A stretch of DNA of 64,000 bases from Pedobacter puniceum (GTDB lineage Bacteria; Bacteroidota; Bacteroidia; Sphingobacteriales; Sphingobacteriaceae): NCBI RefSeq assembly GCF_009674685.1, contig NZ_WKJI01000001.1, positions 930,001 through 994,000 on the forward strand, written 5' to 3'. Position numbers and translations under genes: made by a program. The notes beneath the pieces were generated by a model that was not told the origin of the DNA, did not search any database, and worked only from the letters and a program-made list of their open reading frames with translations. This document shows, piece by piece, positions 22,337 to 32,301 of the stretch. Each line of letters starts with the position of its first letter. Positions within the stretch are counted from its first letter, which is position 1.

Positions 22337-25300
22337 ATGGATAACCTAATAAATAATTTCTCCATTGATGCTTTACAAAGCTTTTTTTACAACAAAATAT
22401 CAAGCTTTAAACCTATTAAAGAAAATCTTTCGGACATTTTATTAAAAAATAATTTCAACCAGTTTACTGATTTATTAAAAATAGGCGAAACCACTTTTAA
22501 TGGCTCCGAAGATTTATTGGTTTTTACATGTAAAGCAAAAACTATTTTATCAGAACGTTCTTCAAAAAAACAACAGTTTGAAATTGCTAAAAAAGTCCTA
22601 AAAGAAGATTTTAAAGATGGTGCCATCTTTGTTTTTTATGATGATGCAGGTAGTTTTAGATTTTCTTTCCTCCGTAAAAACTACGGAAATAAGGAGCAGA
22701 AATTCACGACTTGGAAACGCTATACCTACTACATAGAGAAAGATAAAACTAACAAAACCTTTAAAAATAGAATTGGAAATGCCGATTTTTCCTCTTTAGA
22801 CGCAATACAAAAAGCTTTCAGTGTAGAGAAACTGACTGAAGATTTTTATAAAGAGCTTTTCGCGTGGTATCAATGGACATTATCAGAAGAAATTGGGGTA
22901 ACGTTTCCAAACAATACAGAAACACATGAAGATGACCGAGTAAAATTAGAAGAACAGATTATACGTTTGATAACTAGATTATTATTCGTCTGGTTTATTA
23001 AACAGAAAAAACTTGTTCCTGCTCATTTATTTGATACTGAAAATTTAAAAAACTATTTAAAAGATTTCAATCCTAATAGTAAAGAAGATGGCAATTATTA
23101 CAATGCCATTTTACAAAACCTATTCTTTGCAACATTAAACAAGGAAATCTCCGAAAGAGCATTCTCAAAATTAGTTAAAGAACGAGATATAAAAACATTA
23201 TACCGTTATGCAGAAATGTTTTCAATCTCTGAAACAGAAGTTTTAGCCTTATTTAACCAAGTACCTTTCCTAAATGGTGGTTTGTTTGAATGTTTAGATA
23301 AAACAGAAAAAATGAACGGTACTAACCAAGTCTTAGATGGCTTTAGTAAAAACCCTACTAAATCTGCTAATGGTAATTTTAAGCACCGGGCATTTATCCC
23401 AAATTGTATCTTTTTTGATGATAAAAAAGGTATAATTCCACTTTTAGAACGCTACAACTTTACGGTAGAAGAAAATGCTCCAAATGAGATACAGGTTGCG
23501 CTAGACCCAGAATTATTAGGTAATGTTTTTGAAAATTTATTAGGTGCTTTTAACCCAGAAACTAAAGAAACTGCTCGTAAACAATCAGGGTCTTTTTATA
23601 CTCCAAAAGAAATTGTAAGTTATATGGTAGATGAAAGCTTAATCTTTTATCTGCATAATAGCTTTCCAAATTTAAAAGAAGAAAGTATCCGAGAACTATT
23701 TACAGCAGAAGAATTACCACTTGATTTTGCTAATAACCAAGCACTTTGTGAAGAAGTATCCTTAAAATTAAAAGAAATTAAAATATTAGACCCTGCTTGT
23801 GGTTCTGGTGCTTTTCCAATGGGTATTTTAAACAGAATGGTAGAGGTATTAGAAAAACTAGCTTGTCATAAAGAAAAATCTATTTACGATTTAAAACTTC
23901 ATTTAATAGAAGAATGTATTTATGGGGTTGATATACAAACCATAGCAGTACAAATAAGCAAGTTGCGTTTCTTTATATCGCTTATTGTGGAAGAACACGA
24001 TATTGATTTTACAAATCATCAAAACAACTATGGGATTCTTACCTTACCAAATTTAGAAACAAAATTTGTAGCTGCTAACACTTTAATTGGTATAAAACGT
24101 AAACCAGCGCAACACAATTTATTCGAAAATCCACAAATTGACCAAACTAAAGAAGATTTATTAGAAATTAGAAAAGAGCATTTCTACGCTAAAACAGCTA
24201 ATCGTAAAAAAACTTTGAGAGAAAAGGATGCCGAGTTAAGAGAAAAACTATCACTACTACTTCAAAACAATAACGATTATACGGCTGAAGATGCCATACA
24301 ATTTTCAAAGTGGAATCCTTACGACCAAAATGCTAGCTCTCCATTTTTTGATGTAGAATGGATGTTCGGCTTAAAAAGTGTAAGTGCTAATGAAGGTTGT
24401 TTTGATGTTGTGATTGGGAATCCACCTTATGTTCAATTACAAAAAGACGGCGGTAGACTAGCAAAAATGTATGATAAATTAGGCTATAAAACTTTTGAAA
24501 GAATGGGAGATATTTATTCGCTTTTTTATGAAAAAGGTAATCAAATTTTGAAAAATGGTGGATGTTTAACATATATAACAAGTAATAAATGGATGAGGGC
24601 TGGATATGGAGAAAGTACAAGAAGATATTTTGCAGAAAAAACTAATCCAATTTTACTAATTGATTTTGCTGGACACAAAATATTTGATAATGCAACTGTA
24701 GATACAAATATCTTAATGTTTCAAAACGCTAAAAATGAAGGTGAAACAAAATCCTGTATAGTTAAAAAAAAATGGGATGATAGTTTACATAATTATGTTA
24801 ATGATAATCAAACTATAAATAGTTTTACCTCATCTAATAGTTGGATTGTTTTAAGCCCAATAGAATTAGGAATTAAAGAAAAAATAGAAAAAATAGGTAC
24901 ACCACTTAAAGATTGGGATGTAAATATTTATCGAGGAATTCTCACAGGTTACAATGAAGCCTTTATTATTGATGGTAAAAAGAAGGATGAGTTAATAGCA
25001 GAAGATCCAAAATCTGCCGAAATTATTAGACCTATTTTAAGAGGTAGGGATATAAAACGTTATTCATACGAATTTGCTGAATTATATATAATTGCCATGT
25101 TTCCAAGTAAAAAATATGATATTGAAAATTATCCCGCTGTAAAACAGCATCTTTTAAGTTTTGGATATGATAGATTGAAACAAACTGGAGATAAAGGCGC
25201 CAGAAAGAAAACAACCAATAAATGGTACGAAACACAAGATAGTATAGGTTATTGGGAGGATTTTTATAAACAAAAAATAATCTATCCAAACATGACTAAA

Positions 25301-25675
25301 TATCTACCATTTGTATTTGATGATAAGGGATATTTAACAAACCAAAAGTGTTTTATTATTACAGGGGAGAATATCGCTTTTTTAACTGCTTTTTTAAATT
25401 CTTCTCTTTTTAAATATTGTTTTAAAGATAACTTTCCTGAATTATTGGGAGGAACAAGAGAGTTAAGTAAAATATTTTTTGAAAAGATACCTGTATTGCA
25501 AGTTTCAGAAGATATTAATACTGAATTTGAAAGATTAATTAATCAACTTCAAGATTCCATCAATAATAGTCAAGTAACTCAACTACTTGAGATACAAATT
25601 GATAATAAAATTTTTGATTTATATTGTTTAAATAATGAAGAACGAGAAATTATTGGTTTTATTGAGATTGAATAA
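22337..25675 (+). CDS. Eco57I-like N6-adenine DNA methyltransferase with switchable C-terminal specificity domain
   Basis: 1112 aa. SAM-binding motif I is ILDPACGSGAFPMG (about residue 483) and catalytic motif IV is VVIGNPPYVQ (about 694), the layout of Eco57I/type IIG and PglX-like enzymes. The N-terminal ~450 residues are helical with no nuclease motif I can call safely. From about residue 898 (RPILRGRDIK) to the end is the TaqI-like target-recognition region, with a conserved EDFYKQKII in its middle (973-982). Both segments are encoded within inverted repeats shared with a silent cassette on the other strand, so residues 898-1112 are the currently expressed version of a switchable end. Partner genes downstream (AlbA_2 ATPase, PLD-helicase) suggest it is the self-marking arm of a defence system. 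Confidence 0.88.
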   Translation: MDNLINNFSIDALQSFFYNKISSFKPIKENLSDILLKNNFNQFTDLLKIGETTFNGSEDLLVFTCKAKTILSERSSKKQQFEIAKKVLKEDFKDGAIFVFYDDAGSFRFSFLRKNYGNKEQKFTTWKRYTYYIEKDKTNKTFKNRIGNADFSSLDAIQKAFSVEKLTEDFYKELFAWYQWTLSEEIGVTFPNNTETHEDDRVKLEEQIIRLITRLLFVWFIKQKKLVPAHLFDTENLKNYLKDFNPNSKEDGNYYNAILQNLFFATLNKEISERAFSKLVKERDIKTLYRYAEMFSISETEVLALFNQVPFLNGGLFECLDKTEKMNGTNQVLDGFSKNPTKSANGNFKHRAFIPNCIFFDDKKGIIPLLERYNFTVEENAPNEIQVALDPELLGNVFENLLGAFNPETKETARKQSGSFYTPKEIVSYMVDESLIFYLHNSFPNLKEESIRELFTAEELPLDFANNQALCEEVSLKLKEIKILDPACGSGAFPMGILNRMVEVLEKLACHKEKSIYDLKLHLIEECIYGVDIQTIAVQISKLRFFISLIVEEHDIDFTNHQNNYGILTLPNLETKFVAANTLIGIKRKPAQHNLFENPQIDQTKEDLLEIRKEHFYAKTANRKKTLREKDAELREKLSLLLQNNNDYTAEDAIQFSKWNPYDQNASSPFFDVEWMFGLKSVSANEGCFDVVIGNPPYVQLQKDGGRLAKMYDKLGYKTFERMGDIYSLFYEKGNQILKNGGCLTYITSNKWMRAGYGESTRRYFAEKTNPILLIDFAGHKIFDNATVDTNILMFQNAKNEGETKSCIVKKKWDDSLHNYVNDNQTINSFTSSNSWIVLSPIELGIKEKIEKIGTPLKDWDVNIYRGILTGYNEAFIIDGKKKDELIAEDPKSAEIIRPILRGRDIKRYSYEFAELYIIAMFPSKKYDIENYPAVKQHLLSFGYDRLKQTGDKGARKKTTNKWYETQDSIGYWEDFYKQKIIYPNMTKYLPFVFDDKGYLTNQKCFIITGENIAFLTAFLNSSLFKYCFKDNFPELLGGTRELSKIFFEKIPVLQVSEDINTEFERLINQLQDSINNSQVTQLLEIQIDNKIFDLYCLNNEEREIIGFIEIE
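25027..25044 (+). repeat. outer inverted repeat, left copy (probable invertase crossover site)
   Basis: 18-bp TAGACCTATTTTAAGAGG, identical to the complement of 26278-26295. It encodes RPILRG in the methyltransferase. The 14-bp core CCTATTTTAAGAGG is an imperfect dyad (CCTnTT-nn-AAnAGG) with a 2-bp centre, as expected of a serine-recombinase site. Weaker similarity continues rightwards for about 40 bp. Confidence 0.8.
25255..25281 (+). repeat. inner inverted repeat, left copy
   Basis: 27 bp (GGAGGATTTTTATAAACAAA...) identical to the complement of 26047-26073. It encodes EDFYKQKII in the middle of the specificity region. Flanking DNA on both sides differs between copies, so identity this long at synonymous positions points to recombination. 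Confidence 0.8.
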
Positions 25676-26294
25676 AGTTAAATTCTTCATTTGTTAATTT
25701 GTACAAATTACTAACTAGAACTTCAATTTTTGATTCAAGAATTCTGGTGTCTTCGTTTTTTTTCTTTTTTACTATTATCTCATTTACTAATTTAATAAAT
25801 GATTTCTGCTCAATTTCAGATATTATTGGGATTGGGAACATGTTTACATTTTGTCCGCCAACTTGGACATCCCCAACACCTGTTTTATTCATGTTAGTAA
25901 TAAAGCTATACCATATTATAATTTTTGAATTCAAAATAGAAAGTAGATACTCTAATCCTTTACCTATCAGAATATAACAAGCATTATTGACTATATATCG
26001 ATCTGAATCTATGGAAAATGCCATTTGATTACCAATAATTTTCCAAATTATTTTTTGTTTATAAAAATCCTCCATATAAGCACAATTCCTTAAATTGTAG
26101 AGTGTATCTCCCTTATCAGTCCTTTTTGCTAAAATTTCAAAGTATTGATCTAAATGTTTTTTTATTGCAGGATAATCCTCTGCCTTAATAGGTTTTATGC
26201 CTTTTTCTTTAACTCCATTGTGTATATTGATTAACCATATATCAGCAAAATCATAAGTATATTTTTTAATATCTCTGCCTCTTAAAATAGGTCT
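25659..26294 (-). CDS. silent alternative C-terminal specificity cassette of the methyltransferase
   Basis: Reading leftwards from the outer repeat, an unbroken 211-codon frame begins NRPILRGRDIKKYTYDFADIW and ends EFNFIQSQ-stop. The ORF track shows only its last 138 residues from an internal ATG. It is homologous to the methyltransferase C-terminus at RPILRGRDIK and EDFYKQKII but otherwise different. It has no start of its own: a TAA lies three codons before the repeat. Frame relative to the repeat is identical to that in the active gene, so inversion of 25027-26295 would give an 1108-aa protein in place of 1112. It ends tail-to-tail with the active gene, the two stops overlapping by 17 bp. 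It is a silent cassette rather than a decayed gene. Confidence 0.82.
   Translation of the reverse strand, partial: RPILRGRDIKKYTYDFADIWLINIHNGVKEKGIKPIKAEDYPAIKKHLDQYFEILAKRTDKGDTLYNLRNCAYMEDFYKQKIIWKIIGNQMAFSIDSDRYIVNNACYILIGKGLEYLLSILNSKIIIWYSFITNMNKTGVGDVQVGGQNVNMFPIPIISEIEQKSFIKLVNEIIVKKKKNEDTRILESKIEVLVSNLYKLTNEEFNFIQSQ
26047..26073 (-). repeat. inner inverted repeat, right copy
   Basis: Complement of 25255-25281, 27/27 identical, inside the silent cassette and in the same reading frame as the left copy. Confidence 0.8.
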
Positions 26295-26295
26295 A
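26278..26295 (-). repeat. outer inverted repeat, right copy (probable invertase crossover site)
   Basis: Complement of 25027-25044, 18/18 identical, 35 bp before the invertase ATG. With the left copy it bounds a 1269-bp invertible segment. Confidence 0.8.
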
Positions 26296-26330: not shown

Positions 26331-26948
26331 ATGATATACGGTTACATAAGAGTAAGTACTGATAAACAAACAGTAGAAAATCAAAGATTTGAAATAAATC
26401 AATTTTGTAGCAAACAAGAATTGTTTATAGAAAGATGGATAGAAGAAACTATTTCAGGCACAAAGGAAGTTGATAAACGTACTCTCGGAAAGCTTCTAAA
26501 AAAGACTCAAAAAGGTGATGTATTAATTTGTTCAGAATTATCACGTTTAGGTAGGAGCTTATTTATGATAATGGAAGTACTCAATTATTGCATGAAAAAA
26601 GAAGTGCAGGTTTGGACTATAAAAGATAATTATCGTTTAGGGAATGATATAAATTCTAAAGTGCTCGCATTTGCTTTTGGATTATCTGCCGAAATAGAAA
26701 GAAACTTGATCTCCCAAAGAACTAAAGAAGCACTTTCAAGAAAAAAAGCAGAAGGCGTTGTTCTTGGCAGGCCGATAGGAAAAAAATCAACAAAAGTTAA
26801 ACTAACTGGTAAAGAGAAAAAAATTTCAGATTTACTAAAAAAAAATGTTTCTTACAGTGCAATTGGAAGAATATTAGGAGTACATCGCTTAACTGTTTCT
26901 AAGTTTGCACATGAAAGACTAAAATCCTTAACTAATTTAAACTTTTAA
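26331..26948 (+). CDS. Mpi/Hin-family serine DNA invertase
   Basis: 205 aa. The catalytic domain opens MIYGYIRVSTDKQTVENQR, with the nucleophile Ser in RVST, and contains LICSELSRLGRSLFMIMEVL and AEIERNLISQRTKEAL. The C-terminal ~45 residues form a resolvase helix-turn-helix (SYSAIGRILGVHRLTVSKF). Length and wording match the master invertase Mpi family known from Bacteroides, which flips short inverted-repeat-bounded segments. The gene lies 35 bp outside the outer inverted repeat of the methyltransferase C-terminal segment, the same position as gin beside the Mu G segment. It very probably controls that inversion. Confidence 0.9.
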   Translation: MIYGYIRVSTDKQTVENQRFEINQFCSKQELFIERWIEETISGTKEVDKRTLGKLLKKTQKGDVLICSELSRLGRSLFMIMEVLNYCMKKEVQVWTIKDNYRLGNDINSKVLAFAFGLSAEIERNLISQRTKEALSRKKAEGVVLGRPIGKKSTKVKLTGKEKKISDLLKKNVSYSAIGRILGVHRLTVSKFAHERLKSLTNLNF

Positions 26949-27049: not shown

Positions 27050-28882
27050 ATGCAAAGCCTTTCAGAAATTATCAATTTATTAAACAGTACAGATGAATGC
27101 GCTACCCTAGAAGCTAAAAGAGGTACGGCCATTGGTCATTCGGTTTTAGAAAGTATTTGTGCTTTTGCAAACGAGCCAGGTTTAGGTGGTGGTACTATTA
27201 TTTTAGGGGTAACCCGTGATGAAAGCTCCTTATTTCCTGTATATCAAATAGAAGGTATAAAAGATCCAGATAAATTACAAGCTGATTTAGCCAGTCAAAC
27301 CGCATCATTATTTAACCAACCTATTAGACCACAAATAGAGTTAGAAACAACGCCGAATAATAAATTAGTACTTAAAATTAAAGTACCTGAACTTCCAGAT
27401 GGGCAAAAACCACTATATTTTAAAAACGAAGGCTTACCCAAAGGTGCATACAGGCGTATTGGTTCTACAGACCAGCATTGTACCGAAGATGATTTATTTG
27501 TTTTTTACAACAAGGAAGATAGTTTAGATAGTACCATAGTTAATGATACTAGCTTAGAAGATATTAGTGAAGAAGCTATCACACTATACCGTAATTTACG
27601 TAGCAAAGTAAATGAATATGCAGAGGAATTAACTTATAGTGATATTGATTTACTTCGCTCGTTAGGATGTATAAAAAAGCATAAAGACGATTATAAATTA
27701 ACTTATACAGGTTTATTGGTTTTTGGTAATAGAATGGCTTTAAGACGCTTAATGCCAATGGTAAGGGTAGATTATATACGAGTTCCCGGCAACACCTGGG
27801 TAGAAAACCCCGACAGTAGGTTTACTACTGTAGATATGCGTGGCCCCATGATACAATTAGTGCAACGTATTTTTAGTGCCATAGCAGATGATTTACCCAA
27901 AGGTTTTCTATTACCAGAAGGCGAGTTACAAGCTACCAATATTGGTTTGCCATCTAAAGTGTTACGTGAAGCAATAGTTAATGCACTTATCCATCGTACT
28001 TACAGAGAGAATCAGCCTATTCAAATTATTAGGTATGGCAATCGTTTAGAAATTAAAAACCCAGGCTTTTCGCTTAAACCCGAAGAACAATTAGGAGAGC
28101 CTGGCTCTAAAAATAGAAACCCCTTTATCGCATCCATATTTCACGAAACAAACTTAGCAGAAACCAAAGGTAGTGGAATAAGGATTATGCGTAGCTTAAT
28201 GGAAAAATCATCACTAGCTCCACCAACATTTGAAAGTAACCATACAGCAAATCAATTTACAACAAGGTTATTACTGCACCACTTCCTTAGTGAAGCTGAT
28301 ATAGCATGGCTTAAAACGTTTGAAGTTTACCAATTAAACGACGCACAAAAAAGAGCTTTAATTTTTGTTAGAGAAACAGGAGCCATAGATAATCAAGCTT
28401 ATAGACAACTTAATGGATGTGATATTTTAAAAGCGAGTACAGAGTTAAGAGCCATGAGAGATGTTGCATTATTGCAGCAAAAGGGTAAAGGAAGAGCCAC
28501 TTATTATATTATAGATAGTGGGTTTAATGCACCACTTACATCGCTAAGTACACCAGTTAGTGTGCTTAGTGCATCAGTTAATACACAACCTAATACCCTT
28601 AATACAGAACCTCAATCGTTATTACATGAGTTTCCAGATCATTTGCAAAGTGAGATAGCTCAAATTACAGTGAGAGAGAAAGACATCAATAAGATAAAAA
28701 ATCTGATTTACAAAATATGTAAGCATAGAAGTTGTTCTGTAAGAGAAATTGCAGCGCTCATAAAAAGAAAAGAAAATACAGTATTAAGAAATTATATTAT
28801 ACCTATGAAAGAGGATAATAAACTTCAATACACAATTCCTGATATGCCAAATCATCCAGATCAAGCCTATCAATCTATTTAA
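27050..28882 (+). CDS. AlbA_2 (Schlafen AAA_4) ATP-binding protein with RecG-C-like ATPase domain and C-terminal winged helix
   Basis: 610 aa. Residues 1-130 are the AlbA_2 putative nucleic-acid-binding domain (ECATLEAKRGTAIGHSVLESICAFANEPGLGGGTIILGV). Residues about 300-420 are the GHKL-type ATPase seen in RecG-C-like proteins (REAIVNALIHRTYRENQPIQI... KGSGIRIMRSLMEKSSLAPP). A winged-helix region follows, then a Ser/Thr/Pro-rich linker with repeated units (STPVSVLSASVNTQPNTLNTEP) and a final HTH-like segment. Such proteins occur both as regulators and as ATPase parts of defence islands. Position between the invertase and the PLD-helicase makes a role in the same system likely. Exact function unknown. 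Confidence 0.8.
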   Translation: MQSLSEIINLLNSTDECATLEAKRGTAIGHSVLESICAFANEPGLGGGTIILGVTRDESSLFPVYQIEGIKDPDKLQADLASQTASLFNQPIRPQIELETTPNNKLVLKIKVPELPDGQKPLYFKNEGLPKGAYRRIGSTDQHCTEDDLFVFYNKEDSLDSTIVNDTSLEDISEEAITLYRNLRSKVNEYAEELTYSDIDLLRSLGCIKKHKDDYKLTYTGLLVFGNRMALRRLMPMVRVDYIRVPGNTWVENPDSRFTTVDMRGPMIQLVQRIFSAIADDLPKGFLLPEGELQATNIGLPSKVLREAIVNALIHRTYRENQPIQIIRYGNRLEIKNPGFSLKPEEQLGEPGSKNRNPFIASIFHETNLAETKGSGIRIMRSLMEKSSLAPPTFESNHTANQFTTRLLLHHFLSEADIAWLKTFEVYQLNDAQKRALIFVRETGAIDNQAYRQLNGCDILKASTELRAMRDVALLQQKGKGRATYYIIDSGFNAPLTSLSTPVSVLSASVNTQPNTLNTEPQSLLHEFPDHLQSEIAQITVREKDINKIKNLIYKICKHRSCSVREIAALIKRKENTVLRNYIIPMKEDNKLQYTIPDMPNHPDQAYQSI

Positions 28883-28944: not shown

Positions 28945-31900
28945 ATGGCAAACAATTTTATCACCAATAACACTACTCATAAAAGCTTAAAAGGCAGGTT
29001 AAACACCTTAATTGGCATTAGTGAAGAATTAAAATTTTTAGTAGGTTTCTTTTATTTTTCTGGCTGGCAAGAGTTGTATCAAAGCTTACAAAAAAATACT
29101 ACTTTAAAATTAAAGCTATTAGTAGGTTTACAAGTTTGTAACCACTTAAATAAAGTTTTAGAGTATATTAATCAAGATGAAGCACTATCACAAGACGAGC
29201 ATTTTAATGAGTTTATTACCTCACTAGGTTTTGCATTAAATAATCAAGAATTAGATACAGAAGCATTTTACAACCAAGTAGAATTTTTCTTACAAATGCT
29301 TCAGGATGAACGCTTAATTATTCGTAAAACAGAAAACCCAAACCATGCTAAATTATATCTATTCAGATTAAATCAAGAACAAGCAGAAATCCAGAATATG
29401 GAAGGGCAATTTGTAACGGGTAGCAGCAATTTAACAAAAGCAGGTTTATCTGGTCAAGAAGAATTTAATGTTGAAATTAAAGATTATGGTTTCAAAGATG
29501 CAGAGAGTTATTTTGACGAATTATGGGGGAAAGCCATCCCAATTTCTGAAGTCGAAAATCGCAAACAATTTCTAATTCAATTTATACAACACAAATCCCA
29601 AGCGGCAACAATAACCCCATTTGAAGCTTATGCGCTCATTTTAAAAACATATTTAGATTTACAATTACAAAAACAAATTAAGCCAGAAGTAGAAGGATTA
29701 TTAGAAGAAATTGGTTTTAAAAAGTTTGCTTATCAAACAGATGCCGTAAACCAAGCATTAACTGTAATTAACGAATACAATGGAGTAATCATTGCCGATG
29801 TAGTAGGTTTAGGTAAATCAGTTATTGCATCACTTATAGCAAAAAACTTAGGTAAAAGAGGCATGGTAATTTGTCCTCCAGGATTAATTGGTGATAGAAA
29901 TTACCATACAGGCTGGTGGGAGTATATCGAAAAATTTAAACTTTACGATTGGGAAGTACAAAGTAGAGGTAGATTAGAAGAGATTGCAGAAACCATTAAT
30001 AATAAAGGTATTGAAGTTTTAATTATAGACGAGGCTCATTACTTTCGTAATCAAGACACCGCAGACTATGAAGCACTTCTAAATATATGCAGAGACCGTA
30101 CAGTTATTTTATTATCAGCAACACCATTCAATAATTCTCCAGCAGATATTTTTTCACTCCTAAAGCTTTTTATCATACCGGGTAAATCAGGTATTTCCGT
30201 CGATGACAATTTAGAGGGCTTATTTAGTAATTTTAATTACAGATATAAGCAGTTATCCACCATTACAAAAAATGCAAATTCGTTATATAGTTTAAAAATT
30301 AAAAAAGCAGAAGCTTTATATAAAATCATAATTGATGATCAATTACCTATTGATATAAAAAAGGTAAGAAGTGCAACAAAACACTTAGCTAATCAAATTA
30401 AGCAAATTATATCATCTGTAGTAATTCGTAGAAACCGTCTGGATTTAAAACAAGATTACATCTATGCTAAAGAGGTATCCGAGCTTTCAAAAGTAAAAGA
30501 CCCAATAGAGTTATTTTATCATTTAACACCAGAGCAAAGTATTTTTTATGATAGCATATTAAATGAATACTTCTCAGAAAATGGAAGGTTTAAAGGGGCT
30601 ATTTACCAGCCGTTTAGTTACGAGAAAAAAGTTGAAGATGAAGAAAAACTAGACGAAAAGGGAAACAGAGCCTTCCAACAACAGCGCAACTTATATGATT
30701 TTATGAGAAGATTGCTGGTTAAGCGTTTCGAAAGTTCTTTTGGTGCATTTGAAAAATCTATTGACAGGTTTTTAAATGTACACCTAACTGTTAAAGATTT
30801 TATTAATAGTTCTAATGGTAAATTTATTTTAGACAGAGACTTTATGGAACGTATTCTCGCTTTTGACGAGGAAGATATACTAGCCAATTTGGATAAATAT
30901 GCACAAGGAGATTTAAAAAAGAAAACTCCTAAAAATAATACAGTTTACGATATTAATAAATTTGAACGCAAAGAAGAGTTTCTAAATGATATTGATAATG
31001 ATATATCAATTTTCAAAGAGATTAAAAAAGCTTTAACTAATCTAAATATTGTTCAAAACGATCCAAAAAGAAAAGAGATTACAAAAGAAATCAAAAGAAT
31101 ACTAACTACTGATAAGAACCGTAAAATTATTTTATTTTCAGAATATGTAGATACAATTCTTCATTTAGAAGATTATCTAAGAGTAGAGTTTGGAAACAGA
31201 TTGCTTGTATGTGCTGGTAAAGTATCAAAAGAACTATCAAAAAATTTAAGTTCCGATTTTAACGCACAATACAAAGGTGGTCAAACTAATAATTTTGATG
31301 TAATAATTACATCAGATAAACTATCTGAGGGTTTTAATTTAAATAGGGCAGGAGCAATTATAAATTATGATATCCCATGGAATCCTACACGAGTAATACA
31401 AAGAGTAGGTAGAATAAATCGTATTGGTGCAAAAGTTTTTGACGAACTATATATTTATAATTATTTTCCATCAGAAATAGGTGCTGATATAGTTAAATCA
31501 AGAGAAATTGCACAACAAAAAATGTTCTTAATTCATAGTTCTTTGGGTGAAGATGCCAAAATATTTGATATAGAAGAAGAACCATCTGCATCTGGTTTAT
31601 ACAGTAAGTTAAACCAAAGTCCGGATGAAGATGGAGAATTAAACACAGTAACGATAGTGAGAAATACGTTTAAAGATATTGAGGAAAAATATCCAAGCGT
31701 TATTGAAAAAATAAACAATCTCCCACCTCGTGTTAAAACAGCTAAGAAGTTTGATACAAATAATTTGAATGTATTAAGAAAAAAGGGGTTAAGTCTTTTT
31801 GCTCAAGTGGTAGATTTAACAGAAAAGAGCAGTGGAGATATAGAAGAGGTAATATTCGAAGAATTACTTAAAAACGTGAAATGCGAATATGAAGAACCTC

Positions 31901-32301
31901 GCTTATCATTATCAGATGAGTTTTGGCCTACGTATGAAAAAATTAAAAACTTCAAACCTAATTTCAAAACAGGCAGAAGTGATATTGCATTAGAGTCAAA
32001 AGCATATGAAAACTTACAAGTCTATTTAAAGATTTTAAATGGGAAAGAAGAAACATTAGCAGAATTTATAAAAATGCTCCTTCTGGACATAAAGAAGTAT
32101 CATACACTTTCAACTCGTTCGATTGGTAGATTAGGAAGGAAAATAATTTCAAAAGAAACAAATGAAAAAGAGTTAAAAGCTTTTAGAGATGATATATTTT
32201 GGTTAAGAAATCATTTAGGATTAAACTATCTAAACAAGATTTTAGAACGTGTAGATAAATACCAAAATGAAGTAATTATTGCAGTTGAGAATATCTATTG
32301 A
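28945..32301 (+). CDS. PLD-nuclease / SNF2-type helicase fusion, defence system effector
   Basis: 1118 aa. N-terminal phospholipase-D-type nuclease domain: NHAKLYLF (about 132) and GSSNLTKAGLSGQEEFNVE (about 158), i.e. HxK...GSSN. Then a superfamily 2 helicase: ADVVGLGKSVIASLIAK (Walker A, about 288), LIIDEAHYFRN (DEAH, about 361), LLSATPFNN (motif III), and motifs V-VI SDKLSEGFNLNRAGAIINYDIPWNP and QRVGRINRIG. A long C-terminal helical region follows. Separate PLD and helicase subunits occur in CglI/NgoAVII-type ATP-dependent restriction and in DISARM; here they are fused. It would be the cutting arm that pairs with the upstream methyltransferase. Confidence 0.88.
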   Translation: MANNFITNNTTHKSLKGRLNTLIGISEELKFLVGFFYFSGWQELYQSLQKNTTLKLKLLVGLQVCNHLNKVLEYINQDEALSQDEHFNEFITSLGFALNNQELDTEAFYNQVEFFLQMLQDERLIIRKTENPNHAKLYLFRLNQEQAEIQNMEGQFVTGSSNLTKAGLSGQEEFNVEIKDYGFKDAESYFDELWGKAIPISEVENRKQFLIQFIQHKSQAATITPFEAYALILKTYLDLQLQKQIKPEVEGLLEEIGFKKFAYQTDAVNQALTVINEYNGVIIADVVGLGKSVIASLIAKNLGKRGMVICPPGLIGDRNYHTGWWEYIEKFKLYDWEVQSRGRLEEIAETINNKGIEVLIIDEAHYFRNQDTADYEALLNICRDRTVILLSATPFNNSPADIFSLLKLFIIPGKSGISVDDNLEGLFSNFNYRYKQLSTITKNANSLYSLKIKKAEALYKIIIDDQLPIDIKKVRSATKHLANQIKQIISSVVIRRNRLDLKQDYIYAKEVSELSKVKDPIELFYHLTPEQSIFYDSILNEYFSENGRFKGAIYQPFSYEKKVEDEEKLDEKGNRAFQQQRNLYDFMRRLLVKRFESSFGAFEKSIDRFLNVHLTVKDFINSSNGKFILDRDFMERILAFDEEDILANLDKYAQGDLKKKTPKNNTVYDINKFERKEEFLNDIDNDISIFKEIKKALTNLNIVQNDPKRKEITKEIKRILTTDKNRKIILFSEYVDTILHLEDYLRVEFGNRLLVCAGKVSKELSKNLSSDFNAQYKGGQTNNFDVIITSDKLSEGFNLNRAGAIINYDIPWNPTRVIQRVGRINRIGAKVFDELYIYNYFPSEIGADIVKSREIAQQKMFLIHSSLGEDAKIFDIEEEPSASGLYSKLNQSPDEDGELNTVTIVRNTFKDIEEKYPSVIEKINNLPPRVKTAKKFDTNNLNVLRKKGLSLFAQVVDLTEKSSGDIEEVIFEELLKNVKCEYEEPRLSLSDEFWPTYEKIKNFKPNFKTGRSDIALESKAYENLQVYLKILNGKEETLAEFIKMLLLDIKKYHTLSTRSIGRLGRKIISKETNEKELKAFRDDIFWLRNHLGLNYLNKILERVDKYQNEVIIAVENIY

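Follow-up and report, generated by a model that had tools for sequence, protein, structure and literature searches.

The window analysed here, a 64,000-nt stretch of Pedobacter puniceum DNA, very probably encodes a restriction-modification (RM) system in which DNA inversion shuffles the specificity, with an Mpi-type invertase acting on two nested site pairs to give four enzymes. Inversion very likely switches specificity across the family of related loci as a whole and, as judged from sequence, likely does so in this strain; the inner site and the four states that it allows are well supported. An earlier, sequence-only reading of this DNA had proposed an invertible specificity cassette with two states. 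The cassette, and its service by an Mpi-type invertase, are strongly supported by opposite orientations among relatives, by contig ends, by codon-level conservation of the sites and by the adjacency of the invertase, but half-shuffling predicts four specificities rather than two. The features of the locus are as follows.

22337-25675, plus strand: adenine methyltransferase of 1112 aa in its expressed form, a1b1, with a target-recognition domain at the C terminus
25027-25044, plus strand: left copy of site 2, the outer inversion site, 18 bp, TAGACCTATTTTAAGAGG, encoding RPILRG
25045-25254, plus strand: first part (half a) of the recognition domain in the expressed gene, type QDSI..YW; expressed and silent copies are hypervariable here
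25255-25281, plus strand: left copy of site 3, the inner inversion site, 27 bp, GGAGGATTTTTATAAACAAAAAATAAT, encoding EDFYKQKII
25282-25675, plus strand: second part (half b) of that domain, up to the stop codon, likewise hypervariable
25659-26294, minus strand: a2b2, the silent cassette; its 211 codons lack a start codon and run tail to tail against the methyltransferase gene
26047-26073, minus strand: right copy of site 3, 27 bp
26278-26295, minus strand: right copy of site 2, 18 bp
26331-26948, plus strand: Mpi-family serine DNA invertase, 205 aa (NCBIfam NF009949)
28945-32301, plus strand: PLD-nuclease/SNF2 helicase of 1118 aa (PLDc_2, Helicase_C), the probable partner for restriction

The methyltransferase exhibits matches to Pfam Eco57I (5e-37) and, at its C terminus, to TaqI_C (3.8e-14), in keeping with its earlier description as an Eco57I-like enzyme with a C-terminal specificity domain, and it is recognised by the PADLOC model REase_MTase_IIG (1e-140). 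DPACGSGAF and NPPY motifs are present, and structure comparison matched the fold to those of CamA, BrxX, M.BseCI and MmeI. A classical Type IIG enzyme carries an N-terminal PD-(D/E)XK nuclease in the same chain; no Pfam nuclease domain was detected in this protein, and an alignment of 39 homologues contained no invariant acidic or lysine residue before residue 98. Assignment to BREX was rejected (PglX, 95 bits against a cut-off of 500, with neighbouring genes that are not brx), as was assignment to DISARM (DrmD, 135 bits against a cut-off of 610). A phase-variable Type I RM system was also considered and rejected, as the recognition domain is the methyltransferase's own C terminus rather than a separate HsdS accompanying HsdM and HsdR. 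Phage records held no homologue at 1e-20, and plasmids yielded only matches below 60% identity.

The silent cassette corresponds well to its earlier description as a 211-codon minus-strand frame that starts with RPILRGRDIK, has no start codon, is preceded by a stop and ends tail to tail with the active gene. The open frame spans 26294-25662, the in-frame stop lies two codons upstream of it, and the expressed and silent cassettes overlap by ~15 bp at their tail-to-tail ends. The silent frame matches Pfam TaqI_C (E=3.4e-14), the same domain at the same strength as the active C terminus, and a model of it alone (mean pLDDT 83) resembles the recognition domains of CamA and M.BseCI. When the sequence is inverted in silico at the 18-bp repeat, the product is an open protein of 1108 aa; with the inner pair, four forms of the gene are predicted and not two. 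Inversion at the inner repeat gives 1110 aa and inversion at both gives 1110 aa, compared with 1112 aa as sequenced; the reading frame thus stays open in each of the four (1108-1112 aa), and residues 1-897 are constant throughout.

The outer 18-bp inverted repeat, flanking 1269 bp, was found at both of the positions previously given for it, and has exactly two copies in the 3,899,096-bp genome when up to 2 mismatches are allowed. The nested 27-bp inner repeat, absent from the earlier account, is longer than the outer one, can be extended to 33 bp at 94% (25249-25281 and 26047-26079), and likewise has only two copies genome-wide (up to 3 mismatches allowed). Because it falls within the conserved RPILRG peptide, the 18-bp repeat is by itself only moderately improbable, a doubt that is removed by comparison across loci. 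When expressed and silent copies were compared within each of 30 loci at third codon positions where the amino acid is identical, third-position identity peaked at residues 816-822 (0.96), 894-900 (0.85) and 971-978 (0.98) and was ~0.5 elsewhere, indicating that the sites are conserved as DNA and not merely as peptide. Hypervariable stretches lie between and after the sites, half a at residues ~904-970 and half b at 983-1106, and across ~40 relatives the expressed and silent cassettes are strongly divergent except at two or three short sites. The window locus lacks site 1, and its silent cassette starts exactly at site 2. A 34-bp imperfect palindrome (24776-24809) occupies the position of site 1 in the relatives (residues 814-825). 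No second copy lies near the invertase, and the palindrome may be a relic of site 1 or a product of chance.

Under the proposed mechanism, the invertase would recombine two nested pairs of inverted sites inside coding sequence, both of which are presumably active in this strain. Recombination at site 2 would swap the whole target-recognition domain, and recombination at site 3 only its second half, such that one gene could give rise to four intact enzymes, a1b1, a2b2, a1b2 and a2b1. All four would share one promoter and start codon, meaning that the enzyme would never be off and only its target would change. Halves a and b would each read a different part of the target, and restriction is expected to follow the new target.

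The invertase gene begins 35 bp outside the outer repeat, as had been noted, and its assignment to the Mpi type is confirmed by a score of 335 bits to NF009949 against a curated cut-off of 272. The catalytic RVST and SRLGRS motifs are present, Gin structures align to the protein through the catalytic serine, and a helix-turn-helix (HTH_38) is found at its C terminus. This protein is the presumed enzyme acting on sites 2 and 3. Scoring of dyad symmetry around a 2-bp crossover core gave 3.6-5.3 of 10, against ~2.7 for random sequence, with no single centre, and these scores are confounded by coding constraint; sites 2 and 3 also have no obvious sequence in common. The action of one enzyme on both site pairs is accordingly a presumption.

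The PLD/SNF2 helicase, which the sequence-only reading had not recognised as a restriction partner, is the probable partner judging from its linkage: in 80 loci it lies near the methyltransferase gene and shares its strand, either upstream or downstream, and in the closest relatives (L107, L112 and L123) it directly follows the invertase. The helicase also matches phrog_26785 (E=7e-92), a phage protein family with no assigned function, indicating that related nuclease-helicases occur in phages. Between the invertase and the helicase in the window lies a 610 aa protein (27050-28882) with Schlafen/AlbA_2 and RecG-like C-terminal domains; it is missing from the same position in these three relatives and thus has the look of an accessory gene or of a more recent insertion.

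Comparison of relatives provided the opposite orientations that the sequence-only reading had called for. The loci of Sphingobacterium lumbrici (L107) and Pedobacter sp. AJM (L123) carry the same half-domains in opposite places, the halves being 81-88% identical when compared crosswise and ~30% identical in place. At the DNA level, an inverted alignment of 1447 bp at 84% lies between direct flanks at 70%, 75% and 67%. A second such pair is formed by L071 and L079. Alignment of the window with L123 runs direct, inverted and direct again, with the switches at 25249-25278 and 26047, within the 27-bp repeat, so that these two loci differ by an inner flip; only one second half is still recognisably common to both (window expressed versus L123 silent, 62%). 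In L123 the copies of site 2 share just 8 bp, and the outer switch of that locus may now be inactive. Swapped partners exhibit dN of 0.06-0.11 and dS of 0.6-2.2, and the resulting dN/dS of ~0.1 indicates that the cassettes are under purifying selection. The swaps seen across species are old, and ordinary recombination could be in part behind them.

Half a falls into about four types, and expressed and silent half a were of one type (>55% identity) in 0 of 39 loci, where 11.8 were expected and 0 of 5000 shuffles were as low. The expressed/silent types are 1/0 in 14 loci and 0/1 in 10, and 2/0 and 0/2 in 4 loci each. Every large half-b cluster is joined to two or more half-a types.

Contig ends provide a further line of evidence. 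Among the 36 invertase records from the host's family, 9 have a contig end less than 700 bp away on the invertible side and 0 on the other, compared with an expectation of ~0.56 (P ~1e-8). In five assemblies the methyltransferase-side and invertase-side contigs stop at one place, which is site 2 for G129 and G131, site 1 for G216 and G126, and site 3 for G078. The shared contig ends measure 14-18 bp in four of the five and 260 bp in G078. An assembler ends a contig at so short a repeat only if the reads hold two continuations, and the breaks are therefore a sign, not proof, of mixed orientations within cultures. Several contigs of the first set of loci also end at the sites, and the window's own contig is unbroken at the locus.

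Several other explanations of the locus were weighed against this one. The two-state switch of the sequence-only reading, in which only the outer 18-bp pair recombines and the 27-bp repeat is a conserved peptide, accommodates both a silent cassette bounded exactly by the outer site and the conserved peptide EDFYKQKII. It is nonetheless improbable, because the inner repeat is the longer of the two and its silent positions are identical across loci, exchange of half b is uncoupled from that of half a, the window and L123 differ by just such an inner flip, and the G078 contigs end at site 3. The minus-strand cassette might instead be a duplicate that has lost both its function and its ability to invert, as its lack of a start codon would allow; this was considered the least probable of the alternatives, given that the frame is intact and under purifying selection, relatives show opposite orientations, contigs break at the sites and the invertase is intact.

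It is also conceivable that inversion proceeds by homologous recombination or through another recombinase, with the neighbouring Mpi-type gene being incidental. Repeats of 60-310 bp in some relatives would be enough for RecA, and site sequences differ between lineages. In many systems, the window locus included, the repeats are just 14-27 bp, and an invertase lies within ~100 bp of nearly all silent cassettes, including those of distant taxa, making this explanation very unlikely. Very little probability, finally, was accorded to an on/off switch in which just one of the combinations yields an active enzyme. The cloned Prevotella intermedia gene did give one motif only (PMC5608340), although a clone represents one fixed orientation. 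All four frames are intact in the window, each cassette type is expressed about equally often across species, and the expressed and silent cassettes are always of different type, as expected if both are used.

The preferred interpretation, inversion at nested sites, probably extends well beyond this strain, to single-chain methyltransferases of a widespread family, whose half-domains are mixed by a dedicated serine invertase at two (often three) nested site pairs to give four specificities per locus. A scan of species genomes yielded 80 loci. Among the loci examined, a silent cassette on the opposite strand is present in 50, 47 of which have an Mpi-type invertase, mostly less than 100 bp away. 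Within the host's family, the Sphingobacteriaceae, to which the Pedobacter and Sphingobacterium loci belong, 36 of 401 genomes carry the invertase (loci L106-L141); in the family around Prevotella, 10 of 399 genomes were hit, mostly at loci already in the set. The system was seen in Bacteroidota and in metagenome-assembled genomes labelled Proteobacteria, Planctomycetes, Elusimicrobiota, Myxococcales and Bacilli. Five loci (L045, L062, L075, L093 and L094) carry extra half cassettes that begin at residue 899 or 974, i.e., at sites 2 or 3, which suggests shufflon-like arrays with more than four states. The flavobacterial loci L038 and L040, where the same methyltransferase is accompanied by a helicase of 58% identity but by neither silent cassette nor invertase, are non-switching relatives. 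In the L124-L137 branch, methyltransferases of ~1265 aa with an inverton and invertase occur without a linked PLD helicase and may carry their own nuclease. Closely related Mpi-type invertases without a nearby methyltransferase of this family are found at L120, L138, L139 and L141.

If this interpretation is correct, inversion-driven switching of specificity, described mainly for Type I systems, extends to single-chain methyltransferases, and the recognition domain is naturally split into two exchangeable halves at the joints RPILRG and EDFYKQKII, which would be natural cut points for the engineering of new specificities. Such a switch would let populations diversify both phage defence and methylation-dependent regulation, and a single assembly would show only one of several states.

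Among known systems, Mpi of Bacteroides fragilis and the Gin/Hin enzymes belong to the same serine invertase family as the window's protein, and Gin also exchanges protein C termini. Mpi is known for promoters and Gin for phage tail fibres, whereas the target here is a DNA methyltransferase. CamA and M.BseCI provide the closest solved structures to the window's methyltransferase and recognition domain, but these enzymes have fixed specificity and their entries include no helicase partner; neither is known to undergo inversion. Inversions within coding sequence, RM genes included, have reportedly been described across bacteria, as gene-altering programmed inversions by Milman et al. in 2023 and as intragenic inversions by Chanin et al. 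in 2024. Inversion-based specificity switching is already known for Type I systems, and switching in a single-chain methyltransferase would be a variant thereof. In the pneumococcal SpnIII system, the recombinase PsrA is a tyrosine-type invertase. Inversion of hsdS in such phase-variable Type I systems (pneumococcal cod/SpnIII) exchanges recognition domains and changes the methylation motifs, with several states arising from several sites (PMC4948785), but there a separate HsdS subunit is shuffled, in contrast to the methyltransferase's own C terminus, with its two halves and a serine invertase, in the window. The AchA6III-type Type IIG-like systems combine a methyltransferase/TRD protein lacking a nuclease motif with a separate PLD endonuclease/translocase (Blow et al. 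2016, PMC4752239) and resemble the window in layout, a methyltransferase/TRD gene with an adjacent PLD gene; no inversion was described for them (PMC4752239).

The closest published parallel is in P. intermedia 17F, where a full methyltransferase (Pin17FIII) lies tail to tail with a partial one (Pin17FORF9595), with an SNF2 helicase upstream (PMC5608340). The native m6A motifs of this strain are GGYGAB, GGNYAG and CCNYAG; the cloned full gene produced GGYGAB only and the partial gene none, inversion was not proposed, two of the three motifs were left without assignment, and a close homologue was noted in Rikenella microfusus DSM 15922 (PMC5608340). The R. microfusus locus is L064 of the present set, with a silent cassette, an Mpi-type invertase and an expressed gene that is split between frames in this assembly. 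The P. intermedia locus, as published, shares with the window the tail-to-tail arrangement of full and partial methyltransferases; at the R. microfusus locus the invertase has the opposite direction to that in the window, and site 1 is in use. The R. microfusus motifs, CCGACY, CCRGAG and SCCAAB, split into halves less cleanly than those of P. intermedia and were not counted as support. The three P. intermedia motifs fit, after the fact, a mixing of half-domains in which GG or CC is combined with YGAB or NYAG, three of the four predicted combinations being among the published motifs. Half-domain mixing thus offers a testable account of this methylome puzzle: two-by-two shuffling, if true, would explain GG with YGAB, CC with NYAG and the hybrid of GG with NYAG, and predicts CC with YGAB.
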